DNA from: Providencia rettgeri
Lineage (GTDB): Bacteria > Pseudomonadota > Gammaproteobacteria > Enterobacterales > Enterobacteriaceae
Direction: 5' to 3'
Length of the DNA stretch: 64,000 nt
NCBI RefSeq assembly: GCF_001874625.1
Contig: NZ_CP017671.1
Location: 2,914,001 to 2,978,000, forward strand
A program made the translations under genes and the position numbers. Position 1 is the stretch's first letter. Each line of letters begins with the position of its first letter. This document shows, in pieces, positions 56,900 to 63,550 of this stretch. The notes below the pieces were generated by a model. It did not search any database. It was given only the letters and a program-made list of their open reading frames with translations, and was not told where the DNA came from.

Positions 56900-58405
56900 T
56901 TGAGCACTGAGTTTTGCTTTACCCGCACCTATTCAGAAAATAAATTAAGTCGTTTAAGTAATGAATTCCATATTACAAATATATCAACTGGCATTTTAAT
57001 ATCTAAAAATAACACTACCATCATTCAATATGAGACAGCTTATTACACTGCATATTTGTTCGGTAATATTTATAATATATCAGTGCTAAAATCAATTCTC
57101 GGTAAAATAGAAGGAAGTACTTGGGCACTTAACGAAATTGAAATACTTTGCTTATTAAGAGAAAAGCTAGGGGATACCGCTATTTATCTAGCTGAAGGAG
57201 ATTTTTGTTTATTTATCGAATATCATAACGATACGATTGAAGTGATTACCGAATCACGCGGCTTAAACCTTATTAATGTAGTAAAAGCTGAACAATTTTG
57301 GATTACTAATTGCTTAAAAATTGTAGGTAACTTAGAAGGAGAAAAAATTTTTGATTTTTCTCCTGAACATGAAATCATCGAAAATACATTCAAAACAGAT
57401 ACATTCTCGCCAATTAGAAATGTTATTCGGTTAAAACCAGGAACGATAAACACAATCACCCATGATGAACAAAATTACCCTTATATTGAAAGTAGACAAC
57501 TTGCTACCCCAACAAATAAAAATATCATAACACTGAAAAAAGATGTTCTATACCATTTAATTGATATGGAAATGAGGTATTCCATCTCTAGACTTGTTGA
57601 TAATAATGAATCTATTGGTATTCCACTATCTGGCGGGCTAGATTCTAGTCTTGTCACTGCTTTAGCCTGCCAATACTTTAAAAAAGTAAAAACTTGGTCT
57701 ATTGGTAGCGAATTAAGTAATGAGTTTGAATTTGCTCAAATTGTTTCTAACGCCTTAGGAACGGAACATGAAGTTAAAATATTGAGTGACGATGAGATAA
57801 TTAATGGTGTAATTAACGCTATTTATCATAATGAAATTTTTGATGGTTTATCATCAGAAATCCAATCAGGGTTATTTAACGTTTATAAATTGGCACAAGG
57901 TAAAGTTAACTCACTCTTAACTGGATATGGCTCCGATTTACTTTTTGGGGGAATATTAAACCCATTAAAAGATTATCAAAACCCCAATAATATCCTTGCT
58001 GAACAAGTTTATAGAACCAAATGGACGGGGGAATTCTCTACTCATGGAGCCAATAGTTATGGGCTAAACGTATATCATCCATTTTGGAATAATGGCCTAA
58101 TATCCCTATGTAAAAATTTAAACCCTGATTTTAAAATCAGAGATCAGGAGGTTAAAAATATCCTCCGCGAATATACCGATAATCTGCATCTTATTCCAAA
58201 AGAAATTGTTTGGCGTAAAAAAATAGGTATTCACGAGGGCTCCTCTGTCAACCAATCCTTTGCCAATATCATTGGTACCAGCGCCACCAACTACCAAGCA
58301 AAAACTCGATTTAGCTATGCGGTTTATAAGGAGTTTTTGACTGGGAGACTCACCATTGATGAAGCCACGCCAACGAAACTACGTGAAATAATGAAGAGGA
58401 TTTAA
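56900..58405 (+). CDS. carA: Carbapenam-3-carboxylate synthase CarA
   Basis: CarA closes the beta-lactam ring of carboxymethylproline with ATP, giving carbapenam-3-carboxylate. The 501-residue protein is a class B asparagine synthetase relative without the Cys2 glutaminase nucleophile. The pyrophosphatase loop SGGLDSSLVTAL is at 244-255. Long stretches match Pectobacterium CarA as I remember it: SIGSELSNEFEFAQIVSNAL and IVWRKKIGIHEGSSVNQSFA. The catalytic Tyr (CarA Tyr345) is here Tyr343 in TGYGSDLLFGG, and the essential Lys443 is Lys441. The start is TTG after GAGGG at 8 nt. It is the first gene of the car operon. Confidence 0.95.
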   Translation: MSTEFCFTRTYSENKLSRLSNEFHITNISTGILISKNNTTIIQYETAYYTAYLFGNIYNISVLKSILGKIEGSTWALNEIEILCLLREKLGDTAIYLAEGDFCLFIEYHNDTIEVITESRGLNLINVVKAEQFWITNCLKIVGNLEGEKIFDFSPEHEIIENTFKTDTFSPIRNVIRLKPGTINTITHDEQNYPYIESRQLATPTNKNIITLKKDVLYHLIDMEMRYSISRLVDNNESIGIPLSGGLDSSLVTALACQYFKKVKTWSIGSELSNEFEFAQIVSNALGTEHEVKILSDDEIINGVINAIYHNEIFDGLSSEIQSGLFNVYKLAQGKVNSLLTGYGSDLLFGGILNPLKDYQNPNNILAEQVYRTKWTGEFSTHGANSYGLNVYHPFWNNGLISLCKNLNPDFKIRDQEVKNILREYTDNLHLIPKEIVWRKKIGIHEGSSVNQSFANIIGTSATNYQAKTRFSYAVYKEFLTGRLTIDEATPTKLREIMKRI

Positions 58406-58407
58406 AG

Positions 58408-59160
58408 ATGATTATTGAGCAAGATTTTGAATCGACTCGTTTATTAACATTGGATCATACAAATAAACATAATCCATTCAGTGAAGAGCTAGAAAATGCA
58501 ATTAAACATGCGCTGGTTAAAGCCGAAGAAGATAGCCGCATTAAATCTATTGTCGTCTACGGTGGTGTAGGTCGCTCATTCTCATCAGGAGGTGACTTCA
58601 ATGAAGTCAAAGCACTTTCTGGAGGAGTTGAAGTCGAACGCTGGATAGACCGCGTAATCGATCTGTATCAAGCTGTTTTAAATGTTAGCAAACCAACTAT
58701 TGCAGCTATTGATGGTTATGCCATCGGTATGGGGTTCCAGTTCGCAATGATGTTTGACTATCGTGTTATGTCTGACCAAGCGCAATTTATCATGCCGGAG
58801 TTAAAACATGGTATTGGCTGTTCTGTTGGTGCAGCAATACTTGAGTTTACACATGGTCACTCTTTGATGAAAAAAATTGTTTTTGAATGCGAAAAACTTT
58901 CCGCGACCCAATGTCATCAATATCACATTGCCAATCAAGTAACACCAAGCTCGCATCTTTTAAAAACTGCCTTATTGCAGGCTAATGCATTATCGAAATA
59001 CCCATCAGCAGCTTTCGGTAATACTAAGAAATTGATGAATAAGAGCTTTATTAAAGTATTAGAAAAAACCAGAGAGCAATCTAAGTTAGTACATAAAAAC
59101 GCCTTCGCTGCGAAAGATGCTCAAGAACATTTCCAAAAAATACTCGGTAAAAACTATTAA
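58408..59160 (+). CDS. carB: Carboxymethylproline synthase CarB
   Basis: CarB condenses malonyl-CoA with pyrroline-5-carboxylate to (2S,5S)-carboxymethylproline, the first dedicated step. The 250-residue crotonase-fold protein keeps the CarB numbering: oxyanion-hole Gly62 in SFSSGGDFNEV, Met108 in DGYAIGMGFQFA, and the key Glu131 in IMPELKHGIGCSVGAAILEF. The length equals that of Pectobacterium CarB. It begins 2 bp after the carA stop, so translation is coupled. Confidence 0.95.
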   Translation: MIIEQDFESTRLLTLDHTNKHNPFSEELENAIKHALVKAEEDSRIKSIVVYGGVGRSFSSGGDFNEVKALSGGVEVERWIDRVIDLYQAVLNVSKPTIAAIDGYAIGMGFQFAMMFDYRVMSDQAQFIMPELKHGIGCSVGAAILEFTHGHSLMKKIVFECEKLSATQCHQYHIANQVTPSSHLLKTALLQANALSKYPSAAFGNTKKLMNKSFIKVLEKTREQSKLVHKNAFAAKDAQEHFQKILGKNY

Positions 59161-59175
59161 TTTATAAGGGATTTT

Positions 59176-62052: not shown

Positions 62053-62174
62053 ATCTACTCATACTATTCTAAAGTTTTCAAAAATAGCTAATTTCGTAAA
62101 AGTATTCACTTTTTAGTTTAAATATCTCTCAATAGAGTGCCCCTTAAATTAAACATATAGGATTTTAATACAGT

Positions 62175-63017
62175 ATGAAATACTTGGCTTCACTAATTCT
62201 ATTTATCTTACCAATCTGGAGTACCCATGCATCCTCCTCTTTATTCCAAGAAGTATATATTGACCAAGGGGATTATTACGTAGGTGCTGTTTTTGGTGAT
62301 CATGATTATAAATCAAATTCAAATGTCAAGCTTAATGGCTATTTTATTATGAATACTGAAGTAACCTACAAACTTTACGATGAGATTATTAATTGGGCAC
62401 ACGGACAAGGTTATAAGATAAATGAGGGTTGTAATGGTTCCTTTTATGATGACTGCCGTACATCTGACTTAAATAATAAAGACCATCCAATTACTAATAT
62501 TGAATGGTCTGATGCGATTGTGTTTGCTAATGCATTGAGTGAAAAAATGGGGCTAGAACCTGCCTATATAATTGCAGATAATTCTATTTTGCGAGATAGC
62601 TCACAATATAGTTTTTCAATAAATAATAATGCCAATGGTTATAGATTACCAACAATTGCAGAGTGGATGGTCGCAGCGAGAGGAGGAAATAATGGCCTAA
62701 TTGATGGTACATATGGGCATTATTATTCCGGAAGTAATAATGCAAAGGAAGTTGCCTGGTTTCCCGAACCTAATACAGAGCTATTCGGCACCAGTCCTGT
62801 TGGTAAATTAAAAGCGAATGCTCTAGGAATTTATGATATGAGTGGTAACGTATATGAATGGGTCTATGATAGCGAAACCGTGTTAGGCACAGAAATGTAT
62901 TATTTCTGTGGTGGAAGCTATTTACAACCAGCAGGCTTATCAAGTTGTGATATTCACAGCGCGGGTTTTGTTATGCCCGACATTGGTTTTAGACTAGTTC
63001 GGAGTGCGACCAAATGA
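62175..63017 (+). CDS. carF: Exported FGE/SUMF1-fold protein in the CarF position
   Basis: A 280-residue protein with a Sec signal (about 1-19, ending STHAS) and a formylglycine-generating-enzyme-like fold: FIMNTEVTYKLYDEII, HPITNIEWSDAIVFANALSE, GYRLPTIAEWMVAARGG (155-171), YDMSGNVYEWVYDSE and IGFRLVRSA. The enzyme's catalytic cysteine pair is not obvious; Cys86/94 and Cys245/258 could form disulfides. By place, just before carG with a 4-bp ATGA overlap, it corresponds to CarF, which gives producer immunity with CarG in Pectobacterium. I could not confirm that known CarF has this fold. Confidence 0.65.
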   Translation: MKYLASLILFILPIWSTHASSSLFQEVYIDQGDYYVGAVFGDHDYKSNSNVKLNGYFIMNTEVTYKLYDEIINWAHGQGYKINEGCNGSFYDDCRTSDLNNKDHPITNIEWSDAIVFANALSEKMGLEPAYIIADNSILRDSSQYSFSINNNANGYRLPTIAEWMVAARGGNNGLIDGTYGHYYSGSNNAKEVAWFPEPNTELFGTSPVGKLKANALGIYDMSGNVYEWVYDSETVLGTEMYYFCGGSYLQPAGLSSCDIHSAGFVMPDIGFRLVRSATK

Positions 63018-63550
63018 AACTTAAGAAACTCATCTATTTATTATTATTAGCTAGCTTTATGAGCAACAGTAGCACATTAGTCATGTTAAAAGATGGGCAA
63101 AATAATATAGACCTTAATAATAATGGTATTACTGACATCATTTTTTTAGCTAGCTTTGACAATAATACATCACACCCTAATCGCACTGCGACTATTTTTA
63201 TGAAAGATAACAAAAAATGGTCAATCATTCCCACTCCAGATGATAATGGGTTTATTTGGAGCGATTTTAGCCTATCTGCATCTATGGTTAAAATCTCTGA
63301 TTTTGAATTACATCAGTATAAAAACCATTATTATATGGTTAAAGGAACAAAATTTATAGATAATAACAACAGTGGAGATTTAAGTGATAATACTCAAATA
63401 AAATTCATTCGTTATAAAATAGCAAATAATGAGGTAGACCCTGGAGTCTCTAATTTATATTGGCAACCAACTGGCAGCTACATTACAATTGAGAAATACC
63501 TTAATGTAGATGATGCTTTCAAATTTTTAGATATGGCGCTATTTAAATAA
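63014..63550 (+). CDS. carG: CarG-like carbapenem immunity protein
   Basis: A 178-residue protein with an N-terminal signal (KKLIYLLLLASFMSNSS, cleavage around residue 20). Beta-strand-rich mature sequence with KWSIIPTPDDNG, SDFSLSASMVKISDFELHQY and HYYMVKGTKFIDNNNSGDLS resembles the periplasmic CarG family, whose fold is related to lysozyme inhibitors (PliI). Such proteins protect the producer from its own carbapenem by an unknown mechanism without being beta-lactamases. It overlaps carF by 4 bp. The family call is by pattern and context. Confidence 0.72.
   Translation: MKLKKLIYLLLLASFMSNSSTLVMLKDGQNNIDLNNNGITDIIFLASFDNNTSHPNRTATIFMKDNKKWSIIPTPDDNGFIWSDFSLSASMVKISDFELHQYKNHYYMVKGTKFIDNNNSGDLSDNTQIKFIRYKIANNEVDPGVSNLYWQPTGSYITIEKYLNVDDAFKFLDMALFK

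Follow-up and report, generated by a model that had tools for sequence, protein, structure and literature searches.

A complete car-type gene set predicted to specify simple-carbapenem synthesis and self-protection in a Providencia genome

Gene content of the car locus

The window analyzed here is the whole 64,000-nucleotide stretch of the Providencia rettgeri contig NZ_CP017671.1 (assembly GCF_001874625.1) between positions 2,914,001 and 2,978,000. It harbors, at window positions 56900–63550, eight co-directional open reading frames (ORFs) on the + strand, arranged as carA-carB-carC-carD-carE-carH-carF-carG (Table 1), i.e., the gene set of the simple-carbapenem (car/cpm) operon family. The five genes carA-carB-carC-carD-carE (56900–61450) are all intact, no internal stop was found in any of the eight frames, and none is broken by a frameshift; this bears out the complete five-gene set described in a first-pass annotation made from the sequence alone. 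The short gaps and overlaps remarked upon in that annotation were found between carA and carB (2 bases), carB and carC (15 bases), and carC and carD (21 bases), and as overlaps of 8 bases between carD and carE and 4 bases between carF and carG, whereas the carE–carH (53 bases) and carH–carF (122 bases) gaps are longer. With regard to family membership, carA, carB, carC, carD with carE, and carF with carG were all found by sequence, and carA–carE follow the family order in a single direction; the order after carE is not treated as defining. The operon lies on a contig of 4.78 Mb, the completeness of the genome being rated at 100% and its contamination at 0.55%, and the host, surmised earlier to be Providencia-like, belongs to the same genus as Providencia rustigianii.

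Protein matches were in agreement with the assignment of the biosynthetic genes. CarA matched CarA of the PDB entry 1q15 (E 1.6e-178, residues 1–500), CarB matched CarB of 2a7k (E 5.4e-104, residues 1–250), and CarC matched the carbapenem synthase 1nx4 (E 5.2e-149, residues 5–273), and Pfam matches above the cut-off were obtained to PF09147 (CarA_N), PF01619 (Pro_dh), PF00111 (Fer2), and PF21955 (CarG-like). The catalytic residues named in the first-pass annotation (Tyr343 and Lys441 of CarA; Gly62, Met108, and Glu131 of CarB; His101, Asp103, and His251 of CarC) proved to be unchanged in all of the other proteins compared (20 for CarA, 20 for CarB, and 21 for CarC), as were Glu378 of CarA, Trp79 and Gly107 of CarB, and Arg267 of CarC. 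Tyr165 of CarC is kept in 20 of 21, the exception being P. rustigianii, and Cys38, 43, 46, 76, and 77 of CarE are kept in 16 of 16. Both a CarA_N and a synthetase domain are present in CarA, whose Tyr, Glu, and Lys residues form the active site; CarB is of the crotonase fold, CarC contains a 2-His-1-Asp iron site, and we take Tyr165 of CarC to take part in the C5-inversion mechanism, a role reportedly described by Chang and colleagues in 2014. The carA start is a TTG codon preceded by GAGG, and the GTG start of carD at 60019 lacks a clear ribosome-binding site, leaving that start uncertain.

Identity of CarA–CarE to the proteins of four Pectobacterium clusters is 44–78% (CarA 50–52%, CarC 77–78%), and identity to Photorhabdus reaches 66% for CarA and 84% for CarC; CarD shares 41–56% with the carD products of 16 clusters. 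The exported proteins are less alike to those of Pectobacterium (CarF 46%, CarH 35–40%, CarG 33–34%), and the values for CarA–CarE lie above the level of about 30% that the first-pass annotation had set for Car proteins.

The last three genes, which that annotation had left unnamed, are identified by their sequences as carH, carF, and carG. CarF matched PDB entry 5aoh (E 8.4e-83), a chain labeled "Spore coat protein CotH" in the match table that we take to be CarF, and also PF03781; CarG matched CarG of PDB entry 4o7j (E 9.2e-24) and PF21955 (E 6.4e-43). It is likely from these matches that CarF and CarG are self-protection proteins. The intrinsic resistance of Serratia 39006 is attributed to CarF and CarG in a passage of PMC11778176, and passages of PMC6813493 state that carFG shields Dickeya dadantii against the Pectobacterium carbapenem and that several Pectobacterium strains carry carF/carG without a car cluster, i.e., are immune non-producers. 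The 182-aa exported protein matched no entry of Pfam, NCBIfam, or the PDB at the thresholds applied, and it is assigned to carH because tblastn found it in 14 of the 16 other carA–E clusters (35–54% identity), 3′ of carG in all 14. Cys39 and Cys98 of CarH are kept in all 14 compared, and a structure model from 13 sequences (predicted local distance difference test score 85.8) gave weak structural matches; CarH is described here only as a predicted exported protein with two conserved cysteines. A passage of PMC6813493 groups carH with the synthesis genes, at odds with one in PMC12104563 that names carF and carH as required for resistance. In Xenorhabdus japonica, carH is split across two frames (L035 12356–12906), which may reflect either a dispensable CarH in that species or an error in the draft.

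The Pectobacterium gene order claimed in the first-pass annotation holds for carA–carE but not beyond, where the window has H-F-G and Pectobacterium F-G-H. Among the 16 other clusters, the order after carE is F-G-H in 13 and G-H-F in Dickeya undicola, two Vibrio clusters deviate, and H-F-G occurs in none. In the comparison clusters, for which start codons were picked by script, the usual E–F gap is at most 17 bases (overlaps included) in 15 of 16, against the looser E–H and H–F spacing of the window, and a G–H overlap of 4 bases is present in 11 of 14. In the two Vibrio clusters, carF and carG are about 960 bases apart and no carH is detectable. In Vibrio ruber (L047 13165–14142), an EamA-family transporter gene, a possible exporter, lies between carF and carG; the operon in the window has none.

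Table 1. Features of the car locus and its borders, in window coordinates
Feature	Position	Strand	Basis
mtlA upstream region, common to operon-less relatives	56143..56445	.	blastn against the intervals of 11 relatives
carA leader, AT-rich, within inserted DNA	56446..56899	+	GC 0.304 over 56143–56899
carA, predicted carbapenam-3-carboxylate synthetase, 501 aa	56900..58405	+	1q15, PF09147, active-site residues
carB, predicted carboxymethylproline synthase, 250 aa	58408..59160	+	2a7k, kept residues
carC, predicted Fe/2-oxoglutarate carbapenem synthase, 273 aa	59176..59997	+	1nx4, kept residues
carD, predicted proline dehydrogenase, up to 392 aa, start uncertain	60019..61197	+	PF01619 (E 1.2e-58)
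carE, predicted [2Fe-2S] ferredoxin, 86 aa	61190..61450	+	PF00111, kept Cys
carH, predicted exported protein, 182 aa, displaced to before carF	61504..62052	+	identity to carH of 14/16 clusters
carF, putative exported immunity protein, FGE-sulfatase family, 280 aa	62175..63017	+	5aoh, PF03781, G394 CarF
carG, putative exported immunity protein, 178 aa	63014..63550	+	4o7j, PF21955 (E 6.4e-43)
Apparent 5′ remnant of resident CitMHS-type transporter gene, frame disrupted	63828..63913	+	nucleotide match in 3 of 9 relatives with the gene

Insertion site and relationships of the operon

The insertion site was compared with that of 11 relatives from the genus, fetched from 13 that matched, with gene labels taken from Pfam. 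The site is free of the operon in all 11; mtlA and the gene of an NlpA/MetQ-type lipoprotein are found in the same order in all 11, with a cyclase gene between them in 10, and the distance from mtlA to the next kept gene is 0.56–3.9 kb in the relatives vs. 7.86 kb in the window. The interval between mtlA and the cyclase gene (L073–L083) contains a transporter gene alone in seven relatives, no large gene in two, and the transporter gene with two further genes in two, and this variation suggests that the site tolerates change. The transporter gene is intact (413–416 aa) in 9 of 11 and of the CitMHS type (PF03600 in the one tested). When position 56143 is counted as position 1 of the interval, blastn matches begin at 1–2 and end at 171–303 depending on the relative; the left border of the insertion falls between about 56313 and 56445. 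The transporter scrap gave a 71–74% DNA match to the start of the transporter gene in L074, L078, and L079; at the protein level, it gave two short matches, each in a different frame (E 0.002 and 0.18). Since nine of the 11 relatives hold a transporter gene where the window keeps only a scrap, the operon is, on these sequence traces, judged to have taken the place of resident DNA.

In the tree of concatenated CarA–CarE sequences (17 rows, 1505 columns), the window and Citrobacter sp. JGM124 are sisters (98/95), and the two group with Photorhabdus and Xenorhabdus (100/100), Citrobacter being one of four long branches. The GC content of the operon is 0.349 vs. 0.403 for window positions 1–56142, and none of 198 equal-length slices is that low. 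The closest of the other genus genomes reaches 81% DNA identity at the mtl genes, and for this reason the window genome is probably a species distinct from the other genus genomes compared. Taken together, horizontal acquisition of the operon is supported by the sequence comparisons.

Elsewhere in the window, a 1555-aa Sel1-repeat protein is encoded at 13382–18049, and a 234-aa frame without a Pfam match (18437–19141) lies in the lowest-GC stretch nearby (0.33).

Car genes in other Providencia genomes and beyond

A CarC pattern scan over a genome collection of 84,980 species gave 20 loci, of which 15 have carA–E, four have carA–C without carD/E, and one has carC alone within the examined stretch; a plasmid of Pantoea sp. 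At-9b carries a sixteenth carA–E cluster. All eight car genes have counterparts in 14 of the 16 other carA–E clusters, the two Vibrio clusters being those without detectable carH. In a family sample of 392 genomes, CarC matches at E 0.001 were obtained in 39, with identity of at least 64% in only 8, counting the window's genome; the remaining 31 are weak (at most 44% identity, many over short stretches) and are probably other TauD-family enzymes. The four carA–C loci belong to Caballeronia (L049, L050, L051) and Paraburkholderia acidicola (L053) and have homologues of carA, carB, and carC without carD/carE. An ArgJ-family gene lies near carABC in both loci examined (L049 and L053), and L053 also has an amino-acid kinase gene and an EamA transporter gene nearby; this suggests a different supply route for the pyrroline precursor in these bacteria. 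A CarF-like gene is likewise present in L053.

Within the genus, CarA was found in 1 of the 24 genomes searched, the window's own, and CarC matches were found in three, namely, the window's own, P. rustigianii, and one match of 35 residues, so that 22 of 24 genomes gave no full-length CarC match. P. rustigianii DSM 4541 has an orphan CarC-like gene (L052 10001–10858) with 62–64% identity and an 8-residue insert, flanked by the genes of an RpiR-family regulator on one side and an Orn/Lys/Arg decarboxylase on the other, and no carA match was found in its genome. The iron ligands are kept in this protein and Tyr67 and Tyr165 are replaced; the absence of Tyr165 makes it a naturally occurring variant in which the C5-inversion mechanism could be studied. 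In a quick tree of CarC alone, it falls in the Photorhabdus/Xenorhabdus group (SH-aLRT 95) on a very long branch, a placement marked as unsure.

The search for CarG-like genes was positive in 2 of the 24 genus genomes, the window's own and a Providencia genome designated G394. The latter has a stand-alone carF-carG-carH cassette (L086 8421–10392), and no CarA or CarC match was found in that genome. Its CarF and CarG are the closest relatives of those of the window (69% identity, sister support 100/99 and 100/100), and the F–G overlap is 4 bases in both, as compared with 11 bases in 13 other clusters with adjacent carF-carG (script-chosen starts). Grouping of the window CarF or CarG with Citrobacter was rejected (p 8.9e-6 and 1.4e-4). 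CarH of G394 is only 43% identical to that of the window and stands on a long branch; a forced pairing of the two was not rejected (p 0.274), nor was it recovered in the tree. These observations allow a tentative reading, which we consider doubtful rather than probable, that the operon is a chimera in which the original carFG of an incoming carABCDE-H block (Citrobacter/Photorhabdus type) gave way to a carFG pair from the lineage of a resident Providencia antidote cassette such as that of G394. Since the CarH pairing with G394 was neither found nor rejected, the swap of immunity genes is graded as only possible. If the operon is such a chimera, a producer, an immune non-producer, and an orphan-CarC species would coexist in the genus and would provide a natural case of antibiotic warfare with exchange of immunity; the displaced carFG and the immunity-only relative make such an exchange testable.

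Proposed pathway, alternatives, and known systems

The pathway reactions, the product, and the immunity function have been established in Pectobacterium and Photorhabdus, and those of the window operon would follow by analogy. CarD together with the ferredoxin CarE would convert proline to pyrroline-5-carboxylate, CarB would join this to malonyl-CoA to give carboxymethylproline, CarA would close the beta-lactam ring with the use of ATP, and CarC would carry out C5 inversion and ring desaturation to yield the active carbapenem. CarF and CarG would protect the producer by acting in the cell envelope, with CarH as an exported accessory protein. C5 inversion by CarC is mentioned in a passage of PMC4784017. 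The complete route to (5R)-carbapen-2-em-3-carboxylate proposed in the first-pass annotation is thus upheld as regards gene content, with carA–E intact and the catalytic residues kept, and the product itself is predicted by analogy. We consider it highly probable that the locus is a complete, horizontally acquired operon for (5R)-carbapen-2-em-3-carboxylic acid with CarF/CarG self-protection, from which we infer production of the antibiotic by the strain. The chemistry is expected to be ordinary, the new part being the gene order and the car pieces in other Providencia genomes.

Several observations weigh against this interpretation. The transporter scrap is of limited length, with matches at E 0.001 to no more than three of the nine relatives with the gene, and no mobility gene was seen among the neighboring genes examined. 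Photorhabdus and Xenorhabdus operons are also AT-rich (GC 0.28–0.29 vs. flanks of 0.44–0.46), and for this reason AT content alone is no proof of recent transfer; of the first-pass view that the operon is AT-rich as transferred DNA, both the AT-richness and the transfer stand, but the operon-less site in the relatives is the better evidence. Promoter-like sites over 56100–64000 (both strands) are at chance, 42 vs. 36.6 in shuffles. In the window's genome, neither LuxI (PF00765) nor an AHL-binding (N-acyl homoserine lactone-binding) LuxR domain (PF03472) was found, the Escherichia coli control for the latter being positive; of the five further genomes covered by the LuxI search, three gave a match (Pectobacterium versatile, Prodigiosinella, and Dickeya undicola) and two gave none (Photorhabdus bodei and Citrobacter sp. 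JGM124). Car-family genes can also be kept for another role, as in Sodalis, which according to a passage of PMC7449468 retains a truncated cpmA and a carG homologue affecting insect survival; this calls for caution over the partial car sets of P. rustigianii and G394, whose role may be neither antibiotic synthesis nor immunity.

Because neither LuxI nor an AHL-binding LuxR was found, AHL quorum-sensing control of the CarR type is unlikely and the operon is probably under control of another type. The Photorhabdus cluster is reportedly regulated by a SlyA-type protein, a finding attributed to Derzelle and colleagues in 2002. In Pectobacterium, the carbapenem is controlled by CarR, a regulator of the LuxR type (PMC6256451; likewise a passage of PMC6813493). 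These regulatory negatives, together with the looser carE-carH-carF spacing, lend some weight to an operon that is intact but silent, i.e., one acquired without a working activator and giving no antibiotic under ordinary conditions; we hold this to be possible but unlikely, as P. bodei and Citrobacter sp. JGM124 are also without detectable LuxI, and the unbroken frames and conserved residues point to ongoing selection. Vertical descent, with the operon present in an ancestor common with Photorhabdus/Xenorhabdus and lost in most Providencia so that the P. rustigianii CarC and the G394 carFGH are relics, appears improbable. The window operon does group with the Photorhabdus/Xenorhabdus operons, as does, with its unsure placement, the P. 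rustigianii CarC; however, the sister in the CarA–E tree is Citrobacter, albeit a long branch, and not a Morganellaceae genus, the operon occupies the place of a transporter gene that is intact in 9 of 11 relatives, and most genus genomes lack a full-length CarC match. A variant product, e.g., a saturated carbapenam or another stereoisomer, is very improbable: nothing specific favors it beyond the 50–52% identity of CarA to Pectobacterium CarA, and the deciding enzyme, CarC, is the best-kept protein, with iron ligands and Tyr165 present. The broken transporter scrap next to the operon would fit a decaying operon or an assembly artifact, which is nevertheless scarcely credible in view of the eight open frames and the long contig from a genome rated complete.

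No report of carbapenem biosynthesis in Providencia was found among the matches listed from open PubMed Central titles and abstract starts, a scope that leaves subscription papers outside and makes this weak evidence of absence. Providencia is known for clinical carbapenem resistance. If the operon works, the same genus contains a carbapenem maker and would offer a natural setting for studying the origins of carbapenem resistance and immunity.

Comparison with known systems places the operon, preferably read as a complete and acquired one, among several relatives. The car operons of Pectobacterium carotovorum and Prodigiosinella (Serratia 39006 type) resemble it in the eight genes, carA–E order, sizes, and catalytic residues, with CarA 51–52% identical, and differ in having F-G-H in place of H-F-G; P. 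versatile and Prodigiosinella have LuxI, unlike the window's genome. The cpm operons of Photorhabdus and Xenorhabdus are closest in CarA (65–66%), CarB (66–67%), and CarC (81–84%), and the absence of detectable LuxI is shared with P. bodei, whereas their F-G-H order, tighter spacing, and GC of 0.28–0.29 are unlike the window. The car operon of Citrobacter sp. JGM124, the carA–E sister, exceeds the other named clusters in the identity of CarD (56%) and of full-length CarH (54%), but its order is F-G-H and its CarF and CarG are not sisters of those of the window. The G394 cassette is like the window in CarF and CarG and in their overlap, and unlike it in its F-G-H order, its divergent CarH, and the lack of any carA or carC match in its genome.

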